A model generated the notes under the pieces. It had not been told where the DNA came from, did not search any database, and worked only from the letters and a program-made list of their open reading frames with translations. The position numbers were made by a program, and so were the translations under genes. Shown here piece after piece: positions 2,384-35,108 of a stretch of 35,369 nucleotides of DNA; the first letter of the stretch is position 1, and every line of letters begins with the position of its first letter. Origin of the DNA: a virus; the IMG/VR virus record IMGVR_UViG_3300047564_001958, positions 1-35,369 of that record; one strand, given 5' to 3'.

Positions 2384-3100
2384 ATGCCATTACCTAAATT
2401 ATCAGTTCCTGAATATGAATTGCAACTTCCATCTACAGGTGAGAAGATCAAGTACAGACCATTTCTAGTTCGTGAGGAAAAGATTCTATTCATGGCAATG
2501 GAATCTCAAGACGAAAAGGAAATGGTAAATTCTGTCAAGAATATCATCAAAAATTGCACAAATATTAAAAGAAAGGTAGAAGAACTTGCTACTTTTGAAA
2601 TTGAATATCTATTCCTAAAGATTCGTGCAAAGTCTGTCGGTGAAACTTCTACTTTCCAGATCACATGTCCAGATGATGGTGAGACTCAAGTTGAAGTTAA
2701 AGTTGATTTAGATGAGGTTGAACTTGAGATGAGTGATGATCATAGTCGAAAGATTATGTTAGATGATAGTGTTGGTGTTTTGATGAAGTATCCTTCCCTA
2801 GATACATTTGTTAAGTTAAATCTCTCATCTGAAGAGACTCCAACCATGGATAACATGTTTGAACTTGCAGCAAACAGTCTTGATCAGATTTTTGATGGTG
2901 ATGAAGTTTGGGAGTGTAAGTCAACACCAAAGAAGGAGATTATGGAATTCCTTGAGAGTATGAATAGTGATCAATTCCAGAAGATTCAGTCATTCTTTGA
3001 AACAATGCCCAAATTGAAGAAAGTATTGACAGTTAAGAATCCTAAGACAGAAGTTGAAAGTGAGGTTGTATTGGAGGGTCTTGCTGCTTTTTTCGCATAG
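2384..3100 (+). CDS. 26: Baseplate hub assembly protein gp26 homologue (0-frame product)
   Basis: This 238-residue acidic protein resembles the gp26-type T4 baseplate family of cyanophages. The N-terminus has LPSTGEKIKYRPFLVREEKI and a central CPDDGETQVEVKVDLDEVEL; the C-terminal part is helical. In T4, gp26 (208 residues) acts in assembly of the central baseplate hub. The start is supported by a GGAG site and a late promoter. The gene ends in GCT TTT TTC GCA TAG, and a 67-codon open frame continues in the -1 frame. This is the arrangement of lambda G/GT-type tail assembly chaperones, so this protein may be the short, abundant form of a chaperone pair. The family call is from recollection. 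Confidence 0.75.
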   Translation: MPLPKLSVPEYELQLPSTGEKIKYRPFLVREEKILFMAMESQDEKEMVNSVKNIIKNCTNIKRKVEELATFEIEYLFLKIRAKSVGETSTFQITCPDDGETQVEVKVDLDEVELEMSDDHSRKIMLDDSVGVLMKYPSLDTFVKLNLSSEETPTMDNMFELAANSLDQIFDGDEVWECKSTPKKEIMEFLESMNSDQFQKIQSFFETMPKLKKVLTVKNPKTEVESEVVLEGLAAFFA

Positions 3101-3123
3101 CCCTATTGCATGATAGTCTGGGC
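3073..3123 (+). promoter_or_regulatory. Candidate programmed -1 frameshift signal
   Basis: Three elements occur in the order known from E. coli dnaX. A Shine-Dalgarno-like GGAGG lies at 3073-3077. A slippery heptamer T TTT TTC lies at 3088-3094, in the correct 0-frame phase and 10 bases downstream of it. After a 5-base spacer, a hairpin follows at 3100-3123: GCC CTAT, loop TGCATG, ATAG, a small bulge, then GGC. Slipping by -1 bypasses the TAG at 3098 and continues to 3297, giving a 304-residue fusion. The elements are seen directly; the frameshift itself is inferred. Confidence 0.65.
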
Positions 3124-3297
3124 AATTATTATAAGACTAATTTTGCTCTCATGCAGCATCATAAGTACAGTTTGACTGAATTAGAAGATATGCTCCCTTG
3201 GGAAAGGGACATCTACGTTAGAATGTTGATGAAGTGGTTGAAAGAAGAAGAACAAAGACAAAGAACTCAGCAGTCACAAGGTAGAATATCTCTCTAA
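3106..3297 (+). CDS. -1-frame extension of gp26 (gp51/GT-like chaperone tail)
   Basis: This short frame can be read as 63 residues from a TTG at 3106, but it is open back to the slippery site and has no good start of its own. The only in-frame ATG (3151) would remove most of the conserved-looking part. I therefore read it mainly as the C-terminal part of a gp26 frameshift fusion, with added residues running from RIALLHDSLG to the end. It contains FALMQHHKYSLTELEDMLPW and then a charged helix with EEEQRQRTQQ. The same pattern (hydrophobic turn, MLPWERD, charged helix) is typical of tail assembly chaperone T-domains. In T4 the gene after 26 is 51, a hub assembly factor, so this may be the cyanophage counterpart. 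Its stop overlaps the next ATG (TAATG). Confidence 0.62.
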   Translation: MHDSLGNYYKTNFALMQHHKYSLTELEDMLPWERDIYVRMLMKWLKEEEQRQRTQQSQGRISL

Positions 3298-6200
3298 TGG
3301 CACAACTAAAGGTTAGATCATATCTTACAATTAGACCCACCCAATACGTTAAACGTGGGGGTGGGTTATCTCCGTATTATATTGGTACTATCAAAGGCAT
3401 TAACCGAATGGGTGGTGCTGTAGAATCTATCGGAAAACATTTAGAAAAGGTTAATAAGTTATATAAATTTAGAAACGAGTTTCTAATTCAGAGTCAGGCA
3501 GAAAGACTCAAATTAGAGCAGAAAGGAATTCTTCTAGAAGAGAAAGAAGAAAAGGCAGCAGAAGATAAGAACAAAAAATGGTGGAGAAGATTCTTAGATC
3601 AGAAGAGTGAAGATGAATCCGAAAAGGCATCAAAGAAACCAGAGGATGCTGTTGATAGGGGATCAAGAGTAATCAAGAAAGCACTATCCCCTCTTCAGAA
3701 GTTCTTTGCTAAGTTTTCACCACTCCTAGAAGCATTTATTCGATTAACTGTAGTTCAGGGTGTTCTTGATTGGATAACAGATCAGAAGACATCTGAACTT
3801 GCCAAAACTATAGGTAATGTAGTTAAGATATTTAACTTTGTTAGGAAATTAGTTGGTTTTGGTATTGGTAGCTTACTGGATGGTCTTGGTAACTTATTTG
3901 GTGGAATTGACAAGATCAGACAAGGAAATATTGCAGGAGCATTACAAAGTGTAATTGGAGTTGGGCAATTTCTTGCGGGGGTTGCTTTAGTTAAAGGTGC
4001 TCAGTATATTATGATGCCATGGAAACTCATCTCAGATGTTGGGTGGGTTATGAAACTCTTCACTGAATGGGGTAAAATCAATGGTGAAGCAGAAGGTGCT
4101 GCAGCAAATAAAGATATTGCTGGTTATGTAGATAAGAATGGTAATCAGATTTCTAAGGAAGATTTCGAGAAAGCAAAGAAATCTGCAGCACGAAATGATA
4201 CCAAACGTGCCAAGAGGCAAGGTAAAGGGTGGGCATATATGGGTGGTCAGGACGCAGTAACTGACCGTTATCGTGCTCAATATGGTAGACGTGATAAGAA
4301 CTTTATGCAGAGGGGTGCACAACGTACTCGTATTGGATTTAAACGTGCTACCCGTGGTGTGAGAGGACAATTTAAAGCAGCTGGTAACTGGATGGCAGCA
4401 AATCCAGCAAAAGGAAATGCTATCTTCTCTGTGGTTGGTGGTCTTGCCCGTGCTGGTGGTGGTCTCATGTCTGGGGAGAACGCAGGACAAGCAGTTGGAG
4501 CAGGTCTAGGGCAGGCAACTGGGGGAATTGCTGGATTTGCTTTGGGTAACATGCTTCTCCCTGGTGTTGGGGGAATTATTGGATCTGCACTTGGATCATT
4601 CTTAGGTGAATGGGTTGGTACGAAGTTGGGACCAATCATTGACCCTATTATGAAACCACTTGGTAATGCATTCAAATTGGGATTTGATATTATTGGTACT
4701 GCAATCAGTCCTATACTCAATACCTTTGGTGAATTCTTAGGTGCGATTGTTGATGGTATTGGTGGAATCCTGCAATTATCATGGTGGTTAGCAAAGGCAG
4801 GTGGTGAAGTTATTAAATTTGCCTGGGAGAATTCAATCTACAAGAAAGCAATTGATGGAATGATTTGGGTATGGCAGAATAAAGATAATATAAGTGGAGC
4901 AGTTAGGGATGCACTCACACAAGGTGCCAAAGGTACACTTGATGCATTGACTTTTAATGTCTTTGATTTTGATAAGCAGAATAAGAGATTTGCTGGTGGT
5001 AGAGTACCACTGATGGCAGCAGGTGGTATCTTAAAAACAGACAGTCCAGAAGTTCTTGCACTAAAGATTGCTGGAAGCACGTTAATCTCAACAGTTGAGG
5101 GTGCACTTGGTAGTTTTGGATTAGTTGGTGATCTAACAAGATCTGCAATGTCTTCTGACTTATCAAGAATCAAAGGTGTATTCGGTGGTGTTCCTGTTTC
5201 ATTTGGTGGTGGGAGAATTGCTACTCAAGTAACAAAACCATCAGGTGAAATGAGAGGTGGTGGGGTATCTGAACGTGCTGGTGATGATAGATTGGCATCT
5301 ATTGTTGGAACTAGTGAGGTCAGATTCTTAACTTCACAACCAGATGAATTTAAACCAATGAACGATGGCAGCATGAGAGGATTGCTTGCTGACATTTACA
5401 ATGGTCTTGTGAGTTTAAAAGTTCTGGGTGGAAATAATGTAGTAACACCTGGTCCTGGTGGTCCAGATCCAACTGTAGGTAATATTGAACCAGGACCAAT
5501 GCACCAAAAGGGTGCAAGTATTGCTAAAGAATTAATGCGTCTATTGGGAATTAAGGATTTCCAAGCAGCTGCAATTGTTGGCAATCTAATCCAAGAAAGT
5601 TCTCTAGTTCCTGATAGAATTCAAGGATCTGGTATGAAAAGAGGTCCTCTGAAAGTTGATGGTGTTACTGGTTATTCATATCCACAATGGACTTCTATTG
5701 ATAGGCAAAGAGCATTTGCTGCATATATGGAATCTAAAGGGCATGATTGGAGAAGTAAAGGTGCTACTGATGAATTAGCAACTGGTTTCCTAGCAAAAGA
5801 ATTTAAAGGATACATGTCCAGTGTATTCACTAATACAACGAGTGTAGGAGCAGCATCTAATTGGGTTCTATTTAACTATGAAAAGCCCGCAGATCAGGGA
5901 TCTACTGAACAAAGTGAAAGAGCAACAGATGCCGCAGCTGTTCTTGCCAAAATGGCTATCGGTGGTAAATTTAAGTATAATTCATTAGAAGAATACTTAG
6001 AAAGTAAGGGAAAAACAGCTGAACAAATTAGAAAAGCACTTACTATACAGGATGTTGAAGGTACAGAGTTAAAGAAGAAATATGCAGCTGGAGGAATTTA
6101 TAATTATAATTTAATTCCAGGGCAAGCATATGGTGCATCTAGAGACAATGGTGCTAGGCAACATGCTGGCCAAGATTTAGATATCTCTGGTGGTGAGGCA

Positions 6201-6947
6201 GTGCAAACCTTTGGTGGTGGTGTTGTTGCTGGTGTTTATGGTCAAAACGTTGGTGATTTTGGATATGGTAAGTATATTGATATTTGGAACGATAGATTGA
6301 AAGTTGTTGAGAGGATAGCAGAACTTGGATCATATAGTGTGAAAAAGGGAGATGTATTAAGACCTGGACAAATAATTGGCAGTGGTGAAACACAAACTGG
6401 TGTTGCACATATTGAAGTTAGACCAATGGCAAAATATGCTGAGAAGTATGGTTTTGCAGGCACTAGAAATCCATTGGAATTTTGGAAATCAGTAGGTGCA
6501 GCATCTGATTCTGGTGGTAATAAGATTAAGGTAACTTCGGAAGTTACTGGATCGGCAAATGGATTGCCACCAGATGTTGCGGCAGCAGGAGGTGGAAGTA
6601 CTGGTAGAACTTCACTATTAGGTGGTGGAACAGGATCAGCAGCTGCAACACCAGGTGATGCACTTGAACAGGCACTGAAGAAATGGGCAGAAGCATTTGG
6701 TGGTAGTAAAGCAGAAGCACCTCCTGCTCCTACATTACCAGCAGCAACAACTTCACCTTCAACTTCATCTTCACAAACAACACAGCAGGTACAATCTTCA
6801 TCTGAAACATTCACATCAAGAGAAGCAACTAAACCAAAAGGTGGTGTTGCAGTTGCTACAGTTCCTATTCCTGTTGGTGTTGGGGGATCTCAACCTGCCT
6901 CAAGAATTGTACTAAACAAACCAATTCCTACAGCAATGCTTAGCTAA
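3297..6947 (+). CDS. Giant tape-measure/hub-like virion protein with lysozyme-like and M23-like domains
   Basis: This protein has 1216 residues. Residues about 58-116 form a charged coiled coil. A hydrophobic helical block follows (about 135-250, with GVLDWITDQKTSELAK), then a glycine-zipper stretch (about 373-445). Residues about 738-860 resemble a phage tail lysozyme domain, with GNLIQESS carrying the likely catalytic E767. Residues about 935-1070 resemble an M23/LytM peptidase: H956-x3-D960 is present, but the HxH motif reads VAH1038IEV, so one histidine is missing. The C-terminus is Ser/Thr/Pro-rich. The protein is paralogous to the next gene. Position after gp26 and before gp27, length and zipper suggest a tape measure or gp29-like hub component that also thins peptidoglycan during infection. 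Domain names are by eye. Confidence 0.7.
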   Translation: MAQLKVRSYLTIRPTQYVKRGGGLSPYYIGTIKGINRMGGAVESIGKHLEKVNKLYKFRNEFLIQSQAERLKLEQKGILLEEKEEKAAEDKNKKWWRRFLDQKSEDESEKASKKPEDAVDRGSRVIKKALSPLQKFFAKFSPLLEAFIRLTVVQGVLDWITDQKTSELAKTIGNVVKIFNFVRKLVGFGIGSLLDGLGNLFGGIDKIRQGNIAGALQSVIGVGQFLAGVALVKGAQYIMMPWKLISDVGWVMKLFTEWGKINGEAEGAAANKDIAGYVDKNGNQISKEDFEKAKKSAARNDTKRAKRQGKGWAYMGGQDAVTDRYRAQYGRRDKNFMQRGAQRTRIGFKRATRGVRGQFKAAGNWMAANPAKGNAIFSVVGGLARAGGGLMSGENAGQAVGAGLGQATGGIAGFALGNMLLPGVGGIIGSALGSFLGEWVGTKLGPIIDPIMKPLGNAFKLGFDIIGTAISPILNTFGEFLGAIVDGIGGILQLSWWLAKAGGEVIKFAWENSIYKKAIDGMIWVWQNKDNISGAVRDALTQGAKGTLDALTFNVFDFDKQNKRFAGGRVPLMAAGGILKTDSPEVLALKIAGSTLISTVEGALGSFGLVGDLTRSAMSSDLSRIKGVFGGVPVSFGGGRIATQVTKPSGEMRGGGVSERAGDDRLASIVGTSEVRFLTSQPDEFKPMNDGSMRGLLADIYNGLVSLKVLGGNNVVTPGPGGPDPTVGNIEPGPMHQKGASIAKELMRLLGIKDFQAAAIVGNLIQESSLVPDRIQGSGMKRGPLKVDGVTGYSYPQWTSIDRQRAFAAYMESKGHDWRSKGATDELATGFLAKEFKGYMSSVFTNTTSVGAASNWVLFNYEKPADQGSTEQSERATDAAAVLAKMAIGGKFKYNSLEEYLESKGKTAEQIRKALTIQDVEGTELKKKYAAGGIYNYNLIPGQAYGASRDNGARQHAGQDLDISGGEAVQTFGGGVVAGVYGQNVGDFGYGKYIDIWNDRLKVVERIAELGSYSVKKGDVLRPGQIIGSGETQTGVAHIEVRPMAKYAEKYGFAGTRNPLEFWKSVGAASDSGGNKIKVTSEVTGSANGLPPDVAAAGGGSTGRTSLLGGGTGSAAATPGDALEQALKKWAEAFGGSKAEAPPAPTLPAATTSPSTSSSQTTQQVQSSSETFTSREATKPKGGVAVATVPIPVGVGGSQPASRIVLNKPIPTAMLS

Positions 6948-6973
6948 TAAATACTAAGGGGAACTAATAAATA
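6946..6973 (+). promoter_or_regulatory. Duplicated late-promoter octamer (AATAAATA x2)
   Basis: CTAATAAATA occurs at 6944-6953 and again at 6964-6973, the second copy overlapping the ATG at 6973. An AAGGGG ribosome site lies between them. Only the first copy is positioned to transcribe the ribosome site and start of the next gene. Confidence 0.45.
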
Positions 6974-9900
6974 TGGCAGATCCAACTACCTCAAGACCAC
7001 CAAAACCAAAACTTTATAAGTTTGTTTCAGTTCCATCTGGAACTTCTGGAGCAACTATTAAAGTAGGTGGACAGACTATTACTGGTCCTGGTAATTCCAT
7101 GGTAGGAATTATGAAGGCTATGAATAGTCTAGGTGCGACTGTCAATAGTATTGCTATTATTACTGAGTCTATTGCTAAAGAGACTTCTAAGACTGTTGCA
7201 ACTGAGATTAGACAGCAGAGTGCTTTGGTTAGAAGGCAAGAGAAACTTAGAAAGGATAAGATTAAGAGAGATAGGGAAAAGGAAGATAAAAGAAGAAAAG
7301 AAGCACAAAGATCTAGAGATGCTGATGCTGAAAAGAAATCAGAAGGTCTTGGTAAATTCTTTAAATCATTCACTAAACTAACTACTGCTGCAGTAGGTGG
7401 ATTCTTCTCTGGAATTGCTAAGATATTTGAGGCAATCTTCAGAGGTCTAGTTGTTTACTCTGTTCTTGATTGGATATCCAAACCAGGAAACCTTGGGAAA
7501 TTACAAAGTATTATCAAGGGTGTTATTGGTATTATTAAAGTATTCAAACGATTGATTGAGTTTGGACTTGGTAATGCTCTAGATGGTATTGCCAAGATGA
7601 TTGACGGTGGCATATCATTTAAGGGATTATTCGGTCTCTTCCAATTTATTATTGGATCTGCAGTTCTGTTCAAGACCTTATCTTGGATTAAGAACCCAGC
7701 AAAACTTGCTCAAGACTTTGTAAGTGTTGTTGGATTTATTATCAAAGGCATCATGAACCTCAAAAAGGGTGTCGGTGTCTATGGTAAAGTTAAGAAATTC
7801 ATGTCCTCTAGGGCAGGTAAATATGTTGCAGCTGGTGCTACTGGAATCGGTGCTGCGGCAGGGTCTGCTATTTTAGGAGGAACTAAAGAAGAGATCGTAG
7901 GAACTGGTATTGGTGCAGCTGGTGGAGCACTTGCTGGTGAGATGATTGGGGAGAGACTGGGTGGCACTGCAGGGGCAGCTGCGGGTGCTGCTGCTGGTAG
8001 TATCGTCGGTGGATTGATGGGGGGTGCTGTAGGTAAAGCACTGAAACCAGTTACTGATGCTATTGGTAAGTTCTTTAAATTAATCGGTGATATATTAAAA
8101 CCTGCTTTTGACTTTGTTGGTAATATAGGAAAAGGATTCTTTAGTGCTATTGGTGATTTAATCCAATCCATTGTTAATTTAGTTGAACCACATAAAGAAG
8201 TATTAGGAACTATTGCTAAGGTATCACTAATTGCTGCATTTGGTCCTCTGATTGCATTGATGAAAGCAATCACATGGGTGATTCGTTTATTCGTTCCTAA
8301 GGGTGGTGATGTAGAGAATGGATCAGCAAATTCACCTAAGAGATCCTATGGTGGTAAGGTTGTTGTTCCTCAGATGGCATCTGGTGGACCACTAGTTGGA
8401 CCTACTCAAGATTTTATTGATCCAGTATCGATGAGAATGAGGCAGGCATTACAAGATGCCATGCTGTTACCATTCAAGGCAGTTGGTACTGGTATTATTA
8501 GTGCTTTTGGATTGATTGGTAGTGTATTCATGAGTTTCCTACCAGGACCAATGCAAGCATTCCTTGGTGGAGTATTAGCACCTATTGCAAGTATCTTTGG
8601 AGTTCCAAACTCAGTCTTCAGGAAAGTTACTGGTCTTGCAATGAAGGGGATTAAGAACACAGTATCTACAATTACTGAAGGTGCTGGTGGTCTCCTTGAG
8701 AAACTCATGGGTGGTGAGGGTGACACTAGTGTAACTGGTATTCTAGGTAAGATTCTTAGAGCAGTCACTGACATGCACCAGGCTAATGGGCAGAAACCAA
8801 AGATGGCAATTGGTGGTAGTTTACCTGGTGCTGCTAATGGTGGATGGATTTCTGGTCCTATGTCTGGATATCCAGTATCATTAGATGGTGGTAGATCTGT
8901 ATCATTTATCGGTCACGGAACAGAATGGGTAGGATTTAAAGGTCGTGCTGCAGGTGGTGGAGCAGGATCTGCTTTTGTTATCCCATATCACACACCTGCA
9001 ACAGTCAGAACCCCAAGTCTAACAGGGATGAGAATGAATCAAGCACGTGCTGGTGGATATGCAATGCCAAGATCTGCTGGTGGATCAGTTTATGTTAACT
9101 CTATTCCTAAATTTGCCAACGGTGGTAAGTTTGATCCTGGTAAGTATAATCAAGGAATGAAGAGTAGTGAGCATATTGTAAATCCTGGTGGTACTGGTAA
9201 ATCATATGTAATTGGATACACCCAGAATGATACTGATATCACTATCAAACAAATTAATAAATTGGTAAAGAAAGGAAATATACTAAATCCAGATATGTTA
9301 ACTGGTGTTGAACCAGGAAGTGATGAGTGGAAAACTGTTGTTGGATCATCAAACACAAAAGAATGGTTCAGATCTAAGACAGTACCAGCAATTAAATCGT
9401 CTAAGGTAACATTCAAGGAAGATCCTGATGCTAAGAAATATTATTATTACATGAGGGCATTTAAAACAACTCAGGACAGATGGGATAAGGATCCAAATAT
9501 TTCTGATAAAGATCGTGACATAATGGCAGTTGCAGCTGCCAAGCAAATGGCAATTGTAACTAAAGATCAATCTGCATTACCTGGGGCAAAAGTGAAGGGT
9601 GCTGCACCTGCAGAACTAAAAGATTCTGTAGTTGGATCTACTCCAGAAACATCTCAATCATCATCTGCATCTACACTTGGTGATGCATTAGTCAAGGCAA
9701 TATCAGATTATAATGCAGCATTTGGTATTACTGGTGACAAGATTGATTCTCAGTCATCCAAGACAAAAGAAGCACAAGATGAAGCAGCAAAAGCAAAATT
9801 ACAGCAGGAAGCATCTAAAGTTGAGCAGGCAGCAGGAAAACTCCAAGCAACACCTAAGCAGTCTGCACAAGCATCTCCACCACCAACTGTATTAAATAGT

Positions 9901-9996
9901 GCAAGCAAACCATCGTCTGATGCTAATCCATTCCTAAAGTCAAACTTTGGATTAATTTCACAAACTGCATTCGATCCATCACTAGTACTTTTCTAA
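6973..9996 (+). CDS. Tape-measure-like virion protein, paralogue of the preceding gene
   Basis: This protein has 1007 residues. Its architecture repeats that of its upstream neighbour. A highly charged coiled coil lies at about 77-125 (RRQEKLRKDKIKRDREKE). A hydrophobic block contains VLDWISKPGNLGKLQ, matching VLDWITDQKTSELAK upstream. An Ala/Gly zipper lies at about 285-357, and a C-terminal GDALVKAISDYNAAFG matches GDALEQALKKWAEAFG upstream. Unlike its neighbour it has no visible lysozyme or peptidase domain. It instead has WISGPMSGYPVSLDGGR and SVSFIGHGTEWVG around residues 618-655, motifs I associate with phage tape-measure proteins. It most likely occupies the tail tube lumen and sets tail length, but which of the two paralogues is the tape measure cannot be decided from sequence. 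Confidence 0.68.
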   Translation: MADPTTSRPPKPKLYKFVSVPSGTSGATIKVGGQTITGPGNSMVGIMKAMNSLGATVNSIAIITESIAKETSKTVATEIRQQSALVRRQEKLRKDKIKRDREKEDKRRKEAQRSRDADAEKKSEGLGKFFKSFTKLTTAAVGGFFSGIAKIFEAIFRGLVVYSVLDWISKPGNLGKLQSIIKGVIGIIKVFKRLIEFGLGNALDGIAKMIDGGISFKGLFGLFQFIIGSAVLFKTLSWIKNPAKLAQDFVSVVGFIIKGIMNLKKGVGVYGKVKKFMSSRAGKYVAAGATGIGAAAGSAILGGTKEEIVGTGIGAAGGALAGEMIGERLGGTAGAAAGAAAGSIVGGLMGGAVGKALKPVTDAIGKFFKLIGDILKPAFDFVGNIGKGFFSAIGDLIQSIVNLVEPHKEVLGTIAKVSLIAAFGPLIALMKAITWVIRLFVPKGGDVENGSANSPKRSYGGKVVVPQMASGGPLVGPTQDFIDPVSMRMRQALQDAMLLPFKAVGTGIISAFGLIGSVFMSFLPGPMQAFLGGVLAPIASIFGVPNSVFRKVTGLAMKGIKNTVSTITEGAGGLLEKLMGGEGDTSVTGILGKILRAVTDMHQANGQKPKMAIGGSLPGAANGGWISGPMSGYPVSLDGGRSVSFIGHGTEWVGFKGRAAGGGAGSAFVIPYHTPATVRTPSLTGMRMNQARAGGYAMPRSAGGSVYVNSIPKFANGGKFDPGKYNQGMKSSEHIVNPGGTGKSYVIGYTQNDTDITIKQINKLVKKGNILNPDMLTGVEPGSDEWKTVVGSSNTKEWFRSKTVPAIKSSKVTFKEDPDAKKYYYYMRAFKTTQDRWDKDPNISDKDRDIMAVAAAKQMAIVTKDQSALPGAKVKGAAPAELKDSVVGSTPETSQSSSASTLGDALVKAISDYNAAFGITGDKIDSQSSKTKEAQDEAAKAKLQQEASKVEQAAGKLQATPKQSAQASPPPTVLNSASKPSSDANPFLKSNFGLISQTAFDPSLVLF

Positions 9997-26653: not shown

Positions 26654-28138
26654 ATGAAATTTGACACAATTTGTATTGTTGGTGGAGGCAGTGCTGGATG
26701 GATGACTGCCTCTACTCTTGTAAAAGCATATCCAGATAAAACAATTTATCTTGTAGAATCACCCTCAGTTTCGACAGTTGGAGTTGGTGAATCTACAACA
26801 CAATTTATTCGCAGATGGTTATCATTCCTTGAACTTGAAGATGAGGAATGGATGCCTGCTTGTGATGCAACTTATAAGTATAGTGTTAGGTTTGAGAACT
26901 TCAATGAAGGCAAACCATTTCATTATCCATTTGGTGAACCAGAATTAAATATTCCGATTCATGACTGGTTTGTTTATCGTCAATTAGAAGGTGAAGAATC
27001 AATTGGATTTGATGATACTTTCTGGCAATATCTGAATGCTATTGAGAATGGGAAGTATTTACCTAAAGAATACACTAAGAAACACAGTGGATTCCATTTT
27101 AATGCAGTTAAGTTTGCTGAATGGTTGAGAGAAAACTATGCTATTCCTAAAGGTGTCAAACATATTAAAGGACATGTAGTTGATGTACAACAATCTGAGA
27201 ATGGATTTATTGAAGCAGTCCATTTAGATACATCTGTATTCATCAAAGCAGATTTATTCTTTGATTGTACGGGATTCAAGTCACTATTACTTACAGAAAC
27301 ACTTAAAGTTCCATTTCAAACTTTTGGTGATAAGTTATTGAATACTCATGCATATGCAGTTCAAGTTCCATATCAGGACAAGAGAAGAGAACTGAAACCA
27401 TATACTAATTGTACAGCATTAAGTAGTGGGTGGGTATGGACTGTTCCTGTTTGGGGTAGAATTGGTACAGGATATAACTATTCAGAGAAGTTTATCTCAC
27501 ACGAAGATGCACTTACTGAGTTTAAACAATTCTTAGGTGACAGATTACCAGAAGATGCTACAATTAGAAATATTCAGTTTAGAACTGGTATTAGTCAAAG
27601 AGTGTGGGATAAGAATGTAGTTGCTATTGGATTGTCTGGTGGGTTTATTGAACCACTAGAATCAAATGGATTACTCAGTGTTCATGAATGGTTAATGCAG
27701 TTTGTTGAAATCTGTCAACGACCAGTAATCACTACTTTTGATATGGACTGCTATAATTGGAAATGTATTTCATTCTTTAAAACATTCTCTGATTTTGTTG
27801 CACTTCACTATGCATTAACAACTCGTTGTGATACTCCATACTGGAAATATATTACTAATGAATATCATTTTACTGGAGACAGTCCACTATTTCCAAGTAT
27901 TCATGATGCACGAACAACGTCTAATTTAAATACAATTAATTGGGAAAATCAGGGACCAAATCTTTGCATCATGGCAGGACACAATTACAATCCAGTATTC
28001 AAAACCAAGATTGGAGATAGATTGAATTGGAATCTATTGAGGGGTAAAATAGAAGAGATACATAATAATAGAAAGAGAACAACTGAAACTCTGCAAGATA
28101 TTTACGATTATTATTCTGGAGGAATGTATGCTAATTGA
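26654..28138 (+). CDS. Flavin-dependent tryptophan-type halogenase A
   Basis: This 494-residue protein resembles FAD-dependent halogenases of the PrnA/RebH type (about 530 residues). The N-terminal GGGSAGWMTA (residues 10-19) is the FAD-binding loop and VGVGEST follows. K75 in CDATYKYSVRF corresponds to the catalytic lysine of PrnA (Lys79) that carries hypohalous acid. The halogenase motif WxWxIP appears as W260VW262TVP265, with Val in place of Ile. FIEPLESNGLL is the conserved active-site Glu/Ser region. Such enzymes use FADH2, O2 and halide to chlorinate or brominate an activated ring, and need a flavin reductase, which is not seen here. The gene overlaps its paralogue downstream by 11 bases. 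Substrate specificity cannot be read, and related enzymes act on free tryptophan, peptides or other aromatics. Confidence 0.88.
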   Translation: MKFDTICIVGGGSAGWMTASTLVKAYPDKTIYLVESPSVSTVGVGESTTQFIRRWLSFLELEDEEWMPACDATYKYSVRFENFNEGKPFHYPFGEPELNIPIHDWFVYRQLEGEESIGFDDTFWQYLNAIENGKYLPKEYTKKHSGFHFNAVKFAEWLRENYAIPKGVKHIKGHVVDVQQSENGFIEAVHLDTSVFIKADLFFDCTGFKSLLLTETLKVPFQTFGDKLLNTHAYAVQVPYQDKRRELKPYTNCTALSSGWVWTVPVWGRIGTGYNYSEKFISHEDALTEFKQFLGDRLPEDATIRNIQFRTGISQRVWDKNVVAIGLSGGFIEPLESNGLLSVHEWLMQFVEICQRPVITTFDMDCYNWKCISFFKTFSDFVALHYALTTRCDTPYWKYITNEYHFTGDSPLFPSIHDARTTSNLNTINWENQGPNLCIMAGHNYNPVFKTKIGDRLNWNLLRGKIEEIHNNRKRTTETLQDIYDYYSGGMYAN

Positions 28139-29756
28139 ATCAGTATGTATTGTTGGTGGGGGTAGTTCTGGTTGGATGACTGCCGCAGCACTAAGTAAAC
28201 TATGCCCAAATTTACAGATTGCTTTGATTGAATCTCCAAATATTAAAACAGTTGGAGTTGGTGAATCAACTCTTGGACATTTTAATAAGTTCTTGAGACT
28301 TTTAGAACTCAAAGATGAGGAGTGGATGCCAGCATGTAATGCAACTTATAAGAATTCTATTCGTTTTACTAACTTTGCACAAAAAGATTCTGGAAGTTTT
28401 GAATACCCATTCCAAAGGGGATTTGATTATACAGATAAAGGTGATTTCCTTCAATTGAATATTTACAATGAAATCAAACTAAGAAATCCAGAATTTAAAT
28501 ATCAGTTTGCTGAGTTTTATGCAACATCTAATACTTTACTTGCCAAGCACTGTAAGCAAACTAATAATGCTGATGGTAGATTGAGATTATTTGATTTTGA
28601 ACAAGATACTGCATATCATTTAGATGCAGAACTATTTGGTCAATATTTAAAGGATGAGATTGCAATTCCTAATGGAGTTCTTCATATTGTTGATGATGTT
28701 GTTGGGCAAGTTCGTGAGGAGGGTTATCATCATAAAGAACATGGAATGTTCAATGAAATCTTCACCGAAACAGGATTAAGTATTAAAGCAGATTTGTTTA
28801 TTGATTGTACTGGATTTAAATCTAAACTATTAGAGGGTAGTTGTGGATCACAGTTCATTTCATTTAATAATATTTTGGCAAATGATACTGCATGGGCAGT
28901 TCGTCTTCCTTATGGTGAAAATAGGGAGGAAGAGATGGAGAATGTAACAGATTGCACCGCATTAGACAATGGATGGGTGTGGAACATTCCTCTCTGGAAT
29001 CGTATTGGAACTGGGTATGTATTTTCTAGCAATTTTATTCTCCCAGAAGATGCTAAGAAAGAGTTTCTAAATCATCTGGCACAACGTTATGGTGAAGATA
29101 GAGTTAAAGACTTAGAACCATTTATGATTAACATTAAGCATGGTAAGAGGAGACGTGCTTGGATCAATAATGTTGTAGGTATTGGTCTCTCTTATGGTTT
29201 TGTTGAACCACTTGAATCAACTGGTCTCTTGACAACTCATGAGAATATCATTAGACTGGTTGAAGTTCTGAATAGAAGGGGTGGTTTCGTAACAAGATCA
29301 GAAAAAGAAGCATATAACTATTCAGTTGATAAAGAATTGACTGGGTTTGCAAAGTTTGTATCTATGCATTATGCTTTCTCAGGAAGAACTGATACACCAT
29401 ATTGGAAATGGTGTACTGAAATTAATGAGTATGATATGGATATGATTGATGGGTTAGTTCGTGACAACAGAACTTATTCAAGAATTGCAGAATGTTTAGA
29501 TCAAGGTATTATTGACCCAGATCTAGGTGGAATTCCATATATTTTATCTGGGTTGGGTGTTGAATGTATTTCAACTGAATCAGTTTCTAACATGAGGAAA
29601 GATAGAGCAGGTATTGAATATGATACTATGAATCTTGATATGATTAAAGGTAAATTTGAGAAGTATTTTGAAGAAACAACAGAGTATGTTAAGAGTTTAC
29701 CGTCACACTATGAATATCTGAAACAAAACATTTACAATGGAGATGAATATGCGTAA
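28128..29756 (+). CDS. Flavin-dependent tryptophan-type halogenase B
   Basis: This 542-residue protein is a paralogue of halogenase A and overlaps it by 11 bases, with a GGAGG site just before the start. All signature elements are present: GGGSSGWMTA, VGVGEST, K75 in CNATYKNSIRF, a canonical W283VW285NIP288, and FVEPLESTGLL. It has an extra insertion near residues 95-150 (LQLNIYNEIKLRNPEFKYQF) and a longer C-terminus than A. The two copies are clearly diverged, so they may act on different substrates or positions, or one may work as partner of the other. Halogenation is inferred from residues. FADH2 would have to come from the host or from a phage gene outside this window. Confidence 0.9.
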   Translation: MLIESVCIVGGGSSGWMTAAALSKLCPNLQIALIESPNIKTVGVGESTLGHFNKFLRLLELKDEEWMPACNATYKNSIRFTNFAQKDSGSFEYPFQRGFDYTDKGDFLQLNIYNEIKLRNPEFKYQFAEFYATSNTLLAKHCKQTNNADGRLRLFDFEQDTAYHLDAELFGQYLKDEIAIPNGVLHIVDDVVGQVREEGYHHKEHGMFNEIFTETGLSIKADLFIDCTGFKSKLLEGSCGSQFISFNNILANDTAWAVRLPYGENREEEMENVTDCTALDNGWVWNIPLWNRIGTGYVFSSNFILPEDAKKEFLNHLAQRYGEDRVKDLEPFMINIKHGKRRRAWINNVVGIGLSYGFVEPLESTGLLTTHENIIRLVEVLNRRGGFVTRSEKEAYNYSVDKELTGFAKFVSMHYAFSGRTDTPYWKWCTEINEYDMDMIDGLVRDNRTYSRIAECLDQGIIDPDLGGIPYILSGLGVECISTESVSNMRKDRAGIEYDTMNLDMIKGKFEKYFEETTEYVKSLPSHYEYLKQNIYNGDEYA

Positions 29757-30522: not shown

Positions 30523-30788
30523 AAGTAGAAGATCTTATTGCTGATTTTAATAATCAGTTGCAAAAAGCCAATGAAGATGTTAACCAACTGGAAGCAGATT
30601 TTGCTGACATGAAACTTAATCCATATGGTGTTACTAAAGTTGATTTTACCAGACGAAATCAAATTAGAGAACAGATTCTTCGTCTAGAGGGTGCTATTGA
30701 AGGTCTAACTCTAGCAAAGGCACATTGTGAAGAACTTGGTGGCACATGGGGGGAACCAACTCAAGATGTACAAGACGATCTATCCTGA
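30519..30788 (+). CDS. Small coiled-coil protein of unknown function
   Basis: This 89-residue protein overlaps the previous gene by four bases (ATGA). It is largely helical with two heptad-like segments: FNNQLQKANEDVNQLEADFA (about 10-29) and RRNQIREQILRLEGAIEGLT (about 45-64), joined by a loop with NPYGVTKVD. The C-terminal segment has one Cys and GGTWGEPTQ. No enzyme motif is present. The helical hairpin suggests a dimeric adapter or scaffold, perhaps bridging the modifying enzymes or presenting their substrate. That is speculation from position only. Confidence 0.6.
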   Translation: MKVEDLIADFNNQLQKANEDVNQLEADFADMKLNPYGVTKVDFTRRNQIREQILRLEGAIEGLTLAKAHCEELGGTWGEPTQDVQDDLS

Positions 30789-31407
30789 TGTACAACAACC
30801 AGAAGATGCACAACCAGTAAATATAATTCCAACATATATTTGGAAGTTTAGTTACGACTTCAAGTATGTGGAAAATTTGTTTAAGAGTGTTATAGATTCT
30901 ATGATTGCAGATACACCAGATAATCATACATCTGGTTCTGCCCTAGAAATAGGAACTGCATTTTCTACAGTGCGTAATAGGCATTTTAGGGGTGATGAAT
31001 ATCAACCACATTGTTGGGATTTACTTCAAGATTATAATACTTGGTTAGAATCCAGATTGTTTTATGTTTGGCATTATCTAAATTATTTTGGTAAATCCCC
31101 ACAAATTATCAACTCATGGTTGAATATTCACAAAAGAACAGGTCAAACCTTGGAGCATAATCATAATCATGCTCCATTAGTAGTTTCTGCATATTTAAAC
31201 TTACCTGAGGGTTCTGGTCTTATTGAGTTTAGGGATCCATTAGAATATCACAAATATGGGTTACCATATGAACCTCAAGAGTTTCTATGGACACCAATTG
31301 AAATCAAAACTAACGATGTTTTGATTTTCCCTGGATGGATGAAGCATCGGACACAAGAAAGTAATTCCGATGAAGATAGAGTGGTCCTTACTTATAATAT
31401 TGGATAA
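30766..31407 (+). CDS. Putative 2OG/Fe(II) dioxygenase (PF13759-like) in the halogenase array
   Basis: This protein has 213 residues from the ATG at 30766; a GTG at 30727 would add 13 residues and lengthen the overlap with the coiled-coil gene, so I prefer the ATG. Iron-ligand motifs are H131NH133NH135APLVVSAYLN, GWMKH194 and DR205VVLTYNI. They match the layout in the oxygenase at 15997. The WNIHKRTGQTLE region before the first motif also fits. The triple His (HNHNH) leaves the exact ligand open; H133 and H135 are the likely positions. It probably hydroxylates an unknown substrate using 2OG and O2. Confidence 0.78.
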   Translation: MYKTIYPDVQQPEDAQPVNIIPTYIWKFSYDFKYVENLFKSVIDSMIADTPDNHTSGSALEIGTAFSTVRNRHFRGDEYQPHCWDLLQDYNTWLESRLFYVWHYLNYFGKSPQIINSWLNIHKRTGQTLEHNHNHAPLVVSAYLNLPEGSGLIEFRDPLEYHKYGLPYEPQEFLWTPIEIKTNDVLIFPGWMKHRTQESNSDEDRVVLTYNIG

Positions 31408-31934
31408 TGATAATAGAAATACCGAATGCAGTAGGTGATAACTATCAGGACAAAATAGAAGCATTAATATCCAGTGTTAATTGGAAATGGTGTTATTTAC
31501 CTGATGTGACATTTTGTGAGAATAATGAGGTTGAGGTTCCTGGATTTGCTCATCTACTCTATGATAAACATAGTGGATATGAAAGTACAGAACTTAGTTT
31601 CTTCTATCCACTTGCCCTAGAAATTGCATCAAAGGCAAATCAAAGAATAAGTCAATTTATTCGTATGAAAGTTGGTCTGTTGCTTCCAGGTAGGAATCAA
31701 CCAAACAATAAACATATTGACTTTCCGTTTCCACATACTACTGCAATTTATTATGTCTCAGATAGTGATGGTGATACCGTTTTCTATGATGGGTGTGATA
31801 TAATTCGTAGGTGTAACCCAGAAAAGGGAAAAGCAGTTGTATTTGATGGGTCAATTTATCACGCAAGTTCTTGTCCCATAAATTATAATAGAAGATTTGT
31901 TATTAATGTAAATTTTATCGATGAAGAACACTAA
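31407..31934 (+). CDS. Putative 2OG/Fe(II) oxygenase, prolyl-4-hydroxylase-like (P4H-1)
   Basis: This 175-residue protein starts in TAATG overlap with the previous stop. It contains a clean facial triad: H103-I-D105 in NKHIDFPFPHTTAIYYV, H152 in SIYHASS, and R163 in RRFVINVNF. The pattern HxD...H...R and the IYYV strand are typical of P4H-like 2OG enzymes common in cyanophages. Substrate unknown. Unlike host P4H enzymes there is no N-terminal peptide-binding domain, and the length (about 175) is near the minimal double-stranded beta-helix core. It lies between the two DUF6065-like genes. Confidence 0.83.
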   Translation: MIIEIPNAVGDNYQDKIEALISSVNWKWCYLPDVTFCENNEVEVPGFAHLLYDKHSGYESTELSFFYPLALEIASKANQRISQFIRMKVGLLLPGRNQPNNKHIDFPFPHTTAIYYVSDSDGDTVFYDGCDIIRRCNPEKGKAVVFDGSIYHASSCPINYNRRFVINVNFIDEEH

Positions 31935-32646
31935 AATATACTACTATCAGTTTGAGGGTGATGGATATATTCCAACACTTATGGGATCACCAATTTCTTT
32001 AGATGGTGTTGGGTTTGAACCTACCAGATATATTGAAGAGGTCGATAAGAATGCAACATATTATGAATGTCCTGCTTGGCAACATAAAGCAGTTCGAGAG
32101 TTTGTGATCAGATCAGTTCGTGATATGACTCTAGAAGTTGATGCTGTAAATGGTGTCATCAATTCTCCAAATATGAGACCAGATCAGTTCAATAAGTATA
32201 TACATCAACATAGAAATTTTACAGATTTTAATACAATCCAGTTACCAATTCCAATGCTTTTGTGTTGGACAAAAGAGAAAGATATTTGGGTTGAATTAAA
32301 ACCAGATCCTAGAACTGTTTTAAACAATTTTATTACTGTTGGTGGATGGTTCAACCTATCGGAATGGACAAGACCTCTTTCTTTTGCTATTGATATCGTC
32401 GATAATACAAAACCAGTTGTTATTAAGAGAGGTGATCCAATTTATAAAGTTTGTTTCTATAAAGAAGGTGACTTGACCCGTAACTTTATGCTAGAGAAAG
32501 GAACTCCAAATATGGATATGTTAAATGATGTACAAAAGAGAATTGCACTCAAAGATGTAATTCCTAATATCTCAAGAACTCTTCTTTTTGGTAAAAAGAA
32601 GGAAACGGAATCAAAGTGTCCATTTGCTTTCCTATTTAAGAAATGA
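31921..32646 (+). CDS. DUF6065-like protein 2
   Basis: This 241-residue protein overlaps the previous gene by 14 bases. It parallels DUF6065-like protein 1 in its second half: a Pro-rich strand (LPIPMLLCWTKEKDIWVELK), then NFITVGGWFNLSEWTRPLSF and VIKRGDPIYKVCFYKEGDL, matching GTPLAQYIPI of protein 1. Similarity is clear by eye in Trp, Pro and the GDPIYKVCFY end, but distant. The N-terminus (KIYYYQFEGDGYIPTLMGSP) differs from protein 1. The C-terminus is rich in Lys with KCPFAFLFKK. No catalytic residues could be named. Paralogy suggests it works in the same pathway as protein 1. Confidence 0.6.
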   Translation: MKNTKIYYYQFEGDGYIPTLMGSPISLDGVGFEPTRYIEEVDKNATYYECPAWQHKAVREFVIRSVRDMTLEVDAVNGVINSPNMRPDQFNKYIHQHRNFTDFNTIQLPIPMLLCWTKEKDIWVELKPDPRTVLNNFITVGGWFNLSEWTRPLSFAIDIVDNTKPVVIKRGDPIYKVCFYKEGDLTRNFMLEKGTPNMDMLNDVQKRIALKDVIPNISRTLLFGKKKETESKCPFAFLFKK

Positions 32647-33257
32647 TTACACAACAACCAACCATCATTATTGATAATTTCTTCGAAACACCTAATCAAG
32701 TGCGAGAGTGGGGATTGTCTTTAAATTTCTACAAAGGTGATAGGGGAAATTGGCCTGGGTATAGGACAGATCTCATCCACATGGTAGATGATAAATTTCA
32801 TTCACTGTTGTGTCAAAAGATTATTAAACATACATCTTATAATTATTTTAAACAGTTTGATGCAAGTTTTGCTTTATGTGATGAAACATGGGAATCTGGG
32901 TGGGTACACACAGATCCTATGGACTTTAATGTGGTTGGATTGATTTACCTTTCACCAAATCCACCTAAACTTATTCACTGTGGAACTACAATTTATGATG
33001 CTCCAGGGGATTATGTTAGTGGTGATTCTATATTCATTACAGATGTAAATGAAGAAGATCCAACCAAGAGACAGAGTGAGTCTAGACTTAAACATAACTC
33101 ACACTTCACTCCTAATCAAATTATAGAAAATCGATATAATCGTTGTATTATATTTGATGCTCGACAATGGCATTCTGCTGGTGAGTTCTTTGGTCATCCT
33201 GATGATAAACATGACCAACGTTTAACTATTGTGTTCTTTGGTGCTGCTAGATGGTAA
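32643..33257 (+). CDS. DUF6445-like putative 2OG/Fe(II) oxygenase 1
   Basis: This 204-residue protein overlaps its neighbour by four bases. It has the opening IIIDNFFETPNQVREWGLSL, a NWPGYRT motif, and GWVH89TD91PMDFNVVGLIYL with an HxD pair. QWH177SAGEFFG and QR193LTIVFF supply the distal histidine and 2OG-binding arginine. This is the order expected of a 2OG/Fe(II) fold. I recall the WPGxRT plus QWHSAGEFFG pattern as DUF6445, an uncharacterised relative. The next gene is a paralogue with the same motifs, so the pair arose by duplication. Substrate unknown. Confidence 0.75.
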   Translation: MITQQPTIIIDNFFETPNQVREWGLSLNFYKGDRGNWPGYRTDLIHMVDDKFHSLLCQKIIKHTSYNYFKQFDASFALCDETWESGWVHTDPMDFNVVGLIYLSPNPPKLIHCGTTIYDAPGDYVSGDSIFITDVNEEDPTKRQSESRLKHNSHFTPNQIIENRYNRCIIFDARQWHSAGEFFGHPDDKHDQRLTIVFFGAARW

Positions 33258-33868
33258 AACATCCCACAATTATTATTGATGATTTCTTTGAAACTCCTGA
33301 TCAAATTAGAACCTGGGCACTACAGCAAAAGTTCTACAAGCATGATGGTAATTATCAAGGATTAAGAAGTGATCTATTGACCATTATTGATCCAACAATG
33401 CAGCAACTGATGATCAATAAGATGCTAGAATACTCACATTTTTATTACATTGAAGCACTATATACTTCATTTCAATTGATAGATGAAACTTGGGGTGATG
33501 GGTGGATTCATAATGATTCAAAAGATTTAACTATTGCTGGTCTTGTTTATCTCACTCCAAATGCTCCACAGAATAGTGGAACAATCATTTATGATGATCC
33601 AGATTCCAATATGACGTTAGAACTAACAGAGGGTATTCAAAGGGCATTTGAAATTGAAGTTAATGAACTGGATGATATTAAAAGAAAAGAGTTAGAGATA
33701 CATAGGATTAAACATAATTCTCAGTTCAGAGTATCTCAGGTGATTGAGAATAGATATAATAGATGTGTTATTTTTGATTGTAAAAGGTGGCACGGTGCAG
33801 GACAATATTTTGGCAATACACCTGAAACTAGTAGATTAACTTTACCCTTTTTTGTGAAAGCAAGATGA
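33251..33868 (+). CDS. DUF6445-like putative 2OG/Fe(II) oxygenase 2
   Basis: This 205-residue protein overlaps the previous gene by seven bases and is its tandem paralogue. Shared elements are IIIDDFFETPDQIRTWALQQ, GWIH87ND89SKDLTIAGLVYL, IKHNSQFRVSQVIENRYNRC, RWH181GAGQYFG and SR195LTLPFF. The HxD, H and R residues are all kept, so it is likely active. The WPGxRT motif of copy 1 reads YQGLRSD here, a difference at a position that may line the substrate pocket. Both copies keep IENRYNRC, an odd block between the beta strands with a shared cysteine. Confidence 0.74.
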   Translation: MVKHPTIIIDDFFETPDQIRTWALQQKFYKHDGNYQGLRSDLLTIIDPTMQQLMINKMLEYSHFYYIEALYTSFQLIDETWGDGWIHNDSKDLTIAGLVYLTPNAPQNSGTIIYDDPDSNMTLELTEGIQRAFEIEVNELDDIKRKELEIHRIKHNSQFRVSQVIENRYNRCVIFDCKRWHGAGQYFGNTPETSRLTLPFFVKAR

Positions 33869-34506
33869 GACATGTAGTAGTTAGAGATGCAATTCCTAAG
33901 GAACTTTGTGATTATATTGCAATTGAATATCGTATGATTCGTGATAACATTCTGAGAACTGGTGGACCACCTTGGGATCCTACAGTTCCAGGTGCTTTTG
34001 CTATGTACTCTCCTATTTGTTTTGAGGCATTGAATGTGTATCTTCAACCAAAGATTGAAGAAGTCATAGGTAAAGATTTGCATTCTTCATACAGTTATGC
34101 TAGAATCTATGCGAAAGGGTGTGAATTAAAGAGGCACAAAGATCGAAGTTCATCTGAGTATGCAGTTAGTGCTTGTATTACCAAAGATGTTGATTGGCCA
34201 TTATACTTTGAATATGAAGATTCTGTAGAACCAGTTGAATTAAATGTTGGTGATATTGTAGTATTTCAAGGTCACAAATATTTTCACTGGAGGAGACCAT
34301 ATACTGGTGATGAACAAATTATGGGATTCCTACAATATGTTGATCAACATGGTGAGTGGAAGCATTATAAGTATGATGGTAGACCAATGATGGGAGCACC
34401 ATTTGAAACTGCACACCCAGATGTGCATGAAGAGATGAAAACTTTAAACGACGGTGTAATTGAATGTGATTTGGAGGACAATGAACAATGGACAAAATAT
34501 TTGTAA
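33865..34506 (+). CDS. Putative 2OG/Fe(II) oxygenase, P4H-like with HWRxP motif
   Basis: This 213-residue protein overlaps the previous gene by four bases. HxD is present as RH91KD93RSSSEYAVSA, and the distal ligand as GDIVVFQGHKYFH141WRRPY. The HWRxP ending marks a subgroup distinct from the other P4H-like genes here. An expected arginine/lysine in a later strand is less clear (GFLQYVDQHGEW). The N-terminus VVVRDAIPKELCDYIAIEYR is a typical P4H-like start. The last 40 residues are acidic. Two candidate distal histidines (137 and 141) leave the ligand choice open, with 141 favoured. Confidence 0.75.
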   Translation: MRHVVVRDAIPKELCDYIAIEYRMIRDNILRTGGPPWDPTVPGAFAMYSPICFEALNVYLQPKIEEVIGKDLHSSYSYARIYAKGCELKRHKDRSSSEYAVSACITKDVDWPLYFEYEDSVEPVELNVGDIVVFQGHKYFHWRRPYTGDEQIMGFLQYVDQHGEWKHYKYDGRPMMGAPFETAHPDVHEEMKTLNDGVIECDLEDNEQWTKYL

Positions 34507-35108
34507 TTGATGATATAATTCCTAAGGATTATCAGATTTGGGTAGAGGAAATTATTACCCAACAGAAAGAACTTCCATGGTATTATAAATCTAAAGCAAT
34601 TCATGATGGGTATCAAAAAGATTTAAGAAATGTATTTTGTTTGTTTCATTACTTGTATGAGGAGGAAACTAAGAAATCACCATTATTTGATGCTCTCTAT
34701 CCAATTTTGATGCATACTCATGATAAAGCACCAGAAGTTAGGTGGAATACTTTAGATCGAATGAGAATTAATTTAATGCCGAAGTTTAAGAATGCAGCAA
34801 ACGTTCCCTGGCACTTACCTCATGTTGATAATTATATTCGTAATGGATGGAATGCAATTTATTATGTAAATGATATGGGAGCACCTGATGATGGTGATAC
34901 CTTTATTTTTGAACAAAAGATGGAAGTATTTACACCTGAGGAGTCTGAAAAGATCTTAAAAGATAATTATTTTACTATTAAGAAAAAGATTACACCAAAA
35001 CGTGGAAGAATCGTTATATTTCCAACTTGTTATTTCCATGCATCTTCTTGGTCTAGTACAGTAGATAGATATGTTATCAATTGTAATTTAATTAATGAGG
35101 GTTTCTGA
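34488..35108 (+). CDS. Putative 2OG/Fe(II) oxygenase, P4H-like (P4H-2)
   Basis: This 206-residue protein overlaps the previous gene by 19 bases. It has a clean triad: H112-V-D114 in WHLPHVDNYIRNGWNAIYYV, H184 in CYFHASSWS, and R194 in DRYVINCNL. Motif order, the YFHASS end and the RYVINCN strand are very similar to P4H-1 at 31407, so the two are paralogues. The N-terminus starts FVIDDIIPKDYQIWVEEIIT, a helix common to this group. It is probably an active hydroxylase of unknown substrate. Confidence 0.82.
   Translation: MDKIFVIDDIIPKDYQIWVEEIITQQKELPWYYKSKAIHDGYQKDLRNVFCLFHYLYEEETKKSPLFDALYPILMHTHDKAPEVRWNTLDRMRINLMPKFKNAANVPWHLPHVDNYIRNGWNAIYYVNDMGAPDDGDTFIFEQKMEVFTPEESEKILKDNYFTIKKKITPKRGRIVIFPTCYFHASSWSSTVDRYVINCNLINEGF

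Follow-up and report, generated by a model that had tools for sequence, protein, structure and literature searches.

A single gene of a virus that infects marine cyanobacteria very probably yields two forms of a tail assembly chaperone by −1 slippage of the ribosome (probability about 0.93). The gene, gp26, lies in a stretch of 35,369 nucleotides (IMG/VR record IMGVR_UViG_3300047564_001958), which was analysed at its full length and is referred to here as the window. Normal reading would produce the short form of the chaperone, gp26, of 238 aa, and a minority of ribosomes would slip back by one base on the heptamer T TTT TTC to produce a long form of 304 aa that ends in a helical tail. Two features would promote slippage: an upstream GGAGG, by pairing with the 16S rRNA, and a structure in the RNA immediately past the heptamer. 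By analogy with the G/GT pair of lambda, the domain common to both forms would make a coat on the tape measure protein, and the few long copies would use their tail to recruit subunits of the tail tube. The heptamer, its phase and conservation, the upstream motif, the selected downstream structure, the −1 coding that precedes any start codon, the protein family and the predicted fold can all be read from the sequence, whereas the slippage in infected cells, its efficiency and this division of labour between the forms are inferred.

The slippery heptamer and its conservation

The gp26 gene occupies positions 2384-3100 (this and all other features described here are on the plus strand), and its zero-frame product matches PF12322 (E=1.1e-70; 238.1 bits, against a curated cut-off of 24.5) and phrog_150 (E=1.9e-77). 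The 3′ end of the gene reads GAG GGT CTT GCT GCT TTT TTC GCA TAG, which places the heptamer, a site for tandem −1 slippage, at 3088-3094 in phase with the zero frame and the stop codon TAG at 3098-3100, one codon past it. The initial annotation had proposed exactly this heptamer in the right phase, together with GGAGG 10 bases upstream (3073-3077) and a 67-codon −1 frame leading to 3297 whose only start was TTG, and all of these readings were borne out: the codons of the −1 frame run from 3094 to 3294, the stop codon is at 3295-3297 and the first start codon is the TTG at 3106. After slippage, reading would continue as CGC ATA GCC CTA and so on to this terminal TAA, giving the 304 aa of the long form. 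A scan of 27 window genes (10,784 codon positions) found a single in-phase T TTT TTN, the one in gp26, and the frameshift signal observed at the end of gp26 is real and far above chance. Trypsin would cleave the peptide that the initial annotation had suggested for detecting the junction, just past its Arg, and TEVESEVVLEGLAAFFR is the tryptic peptide that is diagnostic of the junction.

Homologous gp26 genes with their tails were assembled from 105 loci of isolates and metagenomic viral contigs; the main collection, of 80 loci, was retrieved by protein similarity to the tail and not by a DNA motif, and a thinned set of 82 loci less than 90% identical to each other was used for counting. T TTT TT[C/T/A] stands exactly at the join, and in phase, in all 105 loci. 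This is the X XXY YYZ arrangement of a −1 frameshift site, kept across the relatives in zero-frame phase. In the thinned set, its last base is C in 71 loci, T in 6 and A in 5, and the stop codon follows at a distance of exactly one codon in 73 (range, 0 to 8). The codon preceding the heptamer is AGT, GCT, AAT, TCT or GAT in 82/82, so that the residue varies and the final T is constant. At the other codon sites of the same 82 genes, 19,351 in number, an in-phase T TTT TTN was counted 11 times, as against 82/82 at the join. In the alignment across relatives that the initial annotation had called for, the heptamer is invariant, and the preceding residue and nearby synonymous sites vary; the short hairpin that had been expected to be conserved with it (GCCC/GGGC, see below) is not kept.

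The heptamer might be a by-product of a conserved Phe-Phe end of gp26 that overlaps an unrelated frame by chance, and Phe-Phe is indeed kept at this end; however, these residues could be encoded without TTT as the first codon and without a preceding T, T TTT TTA (Phe-Leu) is also found, and the joint probability of the pattern under the codon usage of the same genes, with relatedness ignored, is about 1e-38 (log10 P about −38). Such a coincidence is extremely improbable. The heptamer is present, moreover, in 12 further phage loci outside the 105, which include Emmerichvirinae, Pootjesviridae, Menderavirus, a Rhizobium phage and Xanthomonas phage X1. Beyond the cyanophages, it was found in Vibrio phages D482 and vB_VmeM-32, Aeromonas phage ZPAH1, Cronobacter phage S13, Sinorhizobium phage phiM7, Agrobacterium phage OLIVR5, Rhizobium phage I1_18 (as T TTT TTA), Stenotrophomonas phages Mendera and Moby and the above-mentioned X1.

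The −1 frame tail

The tail (3094-3297; 67 codons and the stop), which forms the C-terminal extension of the putative long form, matches phrog_634 (E=4.6e-31) and the C-terminal part of phrog_150, and its predicted structure consists of three helices at modest confidence (pLDDT 70.5). In GenBank, the tail is mostly given as a separate CDS, and these annotations take the small frame for a gene of its own (gp51), with an internal start or reinitiation after the gp26 stop. Apart from the records themselves, this assumption draws support from three Vibrio phages in which a start codon overlaps the stop codon of gp26 (see below). The annotated starts, however, differ between phages and lie inside conserved sequence, and in S-WAM1 the tail is omitted altogether. 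The first possible start past the heptamer falls at nine different positions across the 82 loci, and a Shine-Dalgarno-like motif before the first start codon of the small frame was found in 0/82. Ahead of the heptamer, the −1 frame is open for 20 codons or fewer, and in 77/82 loci this interval contains no ATG, GTG or TTG.

Coding in the −1 frame, moreover, begins ahead of any start codon. After the gp26 stop, the −1 frame is the only open one, with no stop codon over 45 codons in 82/82 loci; the other two frames average more than five stops. From the stop codon of gp26 to the first conserved ATG, the difference rates at the first, second and third codon positions are 0.17, 0.13 and 0.41, and by this measure the stretch ahead of that ATG evolves as sequence that codes in the −1 frame. 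The database matches of the tail begin at the Phe that is encoded by the heptamer itself. An independent gene would also leave the invariance of the heptamer unexplained, and there is little chance that it is the correct description of the small frame in the window.

Upstream motif and downstream RNA structure

GGAGG at 3073-3077, within gp26 and 10 nt before the heptamer, resembles a Shine-Dalgarno sequence. Such a motif lies upstream of the heptamer in 67/82 relatives, mostly 8-10 nt away, and the background at random in-phase positions is 8%. The protein motif E-G contributes to this signal; the codon choice at the site is GAG in 58%, as compared with 30% elsewhere, and GGG in 17%, as compared with 6%.

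The initial annotation had also described a hairpin starting five bases downstream of the heptamer (GCCC at 3100-3103 with GGGC near 3121). This hairpin was rejected as the stimulator, because it is weak (−6.8 kcal/mol; z −0.58 against dinucleotide shuffles) and is broken in the close relatives L014 and L016. A longer stem-loop at 3106-3156 is probably the better candidate: 3106-3113 pairs with 3149-3156, and an inner arm is formed by 3120-3125 with 3143-3148. This stem is the minimum-energy fold (−14.2 kcal/mol) and begins 11 nt past the heptamer, a spacer that exceeds the usual 5-9 nt; its stability is unremarkable against dinucleotide shuffles (z −0.52), and against synonymous shuffles the downstream RNA of the window has a z of −3.1.

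Comparison among relatives points to selection on this RNA. When the 63 nt past the heptamer were compared with synonymous shuffles encoding the same peptide, the mean z was −1.43 and −1.57 in the first two segments, and it faded with distance to 0.03 by offset 96. In a sister group (16 sequences), a two-helix stem begins 5 nt past the heptamer, seven of its pairs have changed on both sides, and 86.9% of cells are paired; sliding the partners lowers this share to 28-37%. The group to which the window belongs has a stem in a shifted register (3106-3113/3149-3156), which is maintained in 87% of cells, with little variation by which to test it. A search for one consensus structure for all relatives found none, and the register of the stem differs between subgroups. 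The site is therefore accompanied by stimulatory elements of the expected kinds, an upstream motif and/or a downstream structure, of which the window's own stem is the weaker evidence.

Since every surveyed locus has six consecutive T at the join, slippage of RNA polymerase, which would add a U to the transcript, could in principle take the place of slippage of the ribosome. Six T is a short run for polymerase slippage, and that process would need neither the phase of the heptamer, nor the Shine-Dalgarno-like motif, nor the downstream structure, yet all three are conserved. Polymerase slippage is accordingly improbable, and slippage of the ribosome remains the preferred reading.

The chaperone family, T4 and other variants

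The neighbourhood of gp26 is that of a tail assembly chaperone. A tail tube protein gene lies upstream (1586-2347; phrog_45, E=3.4e-44), and a large tape-measure-like gene (3297-6947), which starts at 3297 and overlaps the end of the −1 frame, follows directly downstream. The product of the latter carries a tail lysozyme domain (PF18013) and a weak M23 domain (PF01551, below cut-off), and its tape measure match is partial (phrog_167). The order is thus tail tube, gp26, tail and tape-measure-like gene, which is the same as the order V-G-T-H in lambda. A second large tape-measure-like gene succeeds the first at 6973-9996.

A model of gp26 built from 68 relatives has a pLDDT of 87.7. Foldseek alone returned no significant match of this model to solved structures; on re-alignment by VIA-align, the tail assembly chaperone of HK97 (gp13; 2ob9) ranked first (Z 7.7 on residues 1-85, 84 residues, 4.2 A) and the prophage protein YqbN, a tail assembly chaperone (3klu), ranked second (Z 7.0). 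The chaperone-like region is N-terminal, at about residues 1-87. A Z of 7.7 is within the range where chance arrangements occur, and the match, being below 8, is supportive and not proof. Sequence searches of the PDB found no relatives, and a search of NCBIfam gave no match. Membership in PF12322 and an N-terminal domain that matches chaperones indicate that this is the G/GT pair of a T4-like phage, and the lambda logic that had been proposed for gp26 and its tail is supported by both the gene order and the fold.

The tail assembly chaperone frameshift of lambda G/GT, with counterparts in many long-tailed phages, was reportedly described by Xu, Hendrix and Duda in 2004. As in lambda, −1 slippage in the window would occur near the end of the chaperone gene, between the genes for the tail tube and the tape measure, and would give a short and a long product; unlike lambda, the window has T TTT TTC, a PF12322 protein of 238 aa and a T4-like myovirus as its source. 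Frameshifting of the G-T type is described as conserved in long-tailed phages except T4 (review PMC5009743). According to papers that cite the work, gp26 and gp51 of T4 form a tail assembly chaperone pair (Vladimirov, Gautam and Davidson 2022, Virology 566:9-15; cited in PMC10885494 and PMC12846349), some T4-like phages dispense with frameshifting and have one short gene and one long fusion gene (Vladimirov et al. 2022, cited in PRFect, PMC10885494), and poly-T frameshift signals occur in T4-like phages (Vladimirov et al. 2022, cited in PMC12846349). As relayed by these later papers, the general idea is therefore already published, and the chaperone frameshift itself is well known in other tailed phages; what is added here is the survey of the heptamer, the upstream motif, the structure and the exceptions. 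A similar poly-T −1 site (GTTTTT) at the 3′ end of the short form, where the extension had wrongly been annotated as a gene in its own right, has been reported in other phage families, Pakpunavirus and Andersonviridae (PMC12846349).

In T4, both gp26 (208 aa) and gp51 (249 aa) match PF12322, and gp51 matches phrog_150 from end to end, the part that aligns to the tail of the window included, and phrog_634 as well. Because gp51 spans a gp26-like domain and the tail, gp26 of T4 corresponds to the short form and gp51 to the long form. The description of the window's tail as gp51-like in the initial annotation was thus right as to homology with the C-terminus of gp51, but gp51 is a gp26-like domain plus the tail. 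Genes 26 and 51 are two divergent, separate genes, and because the whole long form is encoded apart from gene 26, T4 itself is without the frameshift mechanism that one gene of the window would use. RB43 also has two PF12322 genes, which are adjacent; among 14 phages scanned, two such genes were found in T4 and RB43 and one in each of the others. Only one PF12322 gene is seen among the ORFs of the window, a partial record, and its tail is encoded in the −1 frame. In the tree, a 98/95 branch sets the proteins of the two-gene phages, both long and short, apart from the rest, a grouping that fits one duplication. As the root is not fixed, the direction of change was inferred from how widespread frameshifting is among other tail chaperones. 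The cyanophage group would then join the ordinary tail-chaperone frameshift phages, and T4, the textbook exception, looks like a derived case in which gene duplication replaced frameshifting.

Other exceptions were found among the relatives. In Vibrio phages YC, K475 and 207E48.1, a TAATG stop-start overlap replaces the heptamer (L109:2214, L116:2223 and L143:1626, respectively). Relatives of this kind, with the heptamer lost, both frames kept and a good independent start, had been named in the initial annotation as evidence against frameshifting; they do occur. YC and K475, the two that were placed on the tree, seem to form a derived branch within the phages that frameshift, although their placement is loose. 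Two members of the Ackermannviridae, Salmonella phage maane (L141:1690-2205) and Serratia phage 2050H1 (L142:1650-2160), have an unannotated −1 tail after gp26, with the heptamer lost (ATT TTC ATT TAA and GTT TTC ATC TGA, respectively) and no ATG nearby. As a tentative reading, rather doubtful as a whole, the short and long pair may be made in at least three ways within one chaperone family, by T TTT TTN frameshifting (in cyanophages and several T4-like and Rhizobium/Agrobacterium lineages), by two genes (in T4 and RB43) and by a TAATG start (in YC, K475 and 207E48.1), and in the Ackermannviridae the tail may depend on a non-canonical slip or start that has yet to be described. Stenotrophomonas phage IME-SM1 (L008:2212-2230) has five T at the slippery run and its tail in the +1 frame. 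A switch in the direction of frameshifting was rejected for this phage, because other Menderavirus records are one base longer there and the two that were read have six T; the record most likely contains a sequencing or assembly error.

In many cyanophage genomes, the tail is either entered as a separate gene whose start is arbitrary or left out, and the joined long form should be annotated there. The uniform heptamer, combined with natural variation in the motif and the structure, makes these loci well suited to testing what stimulates frameshifting in cyanobacterial ribosomes. Elsewhere in the window, two adjacent ORFs at 26654-29756 (494 and 542 aa), within the tail region of the phage, resemble flavin-dependent tryptophan halogenases by GGGSAGWMTA-type motifs in their translations, and among the small ORFs that come after the tail genes, at 30727-35108, several look like proteins of the 2-oxoglutarate/Fe(II) oxygenase type, likewise from their translations.
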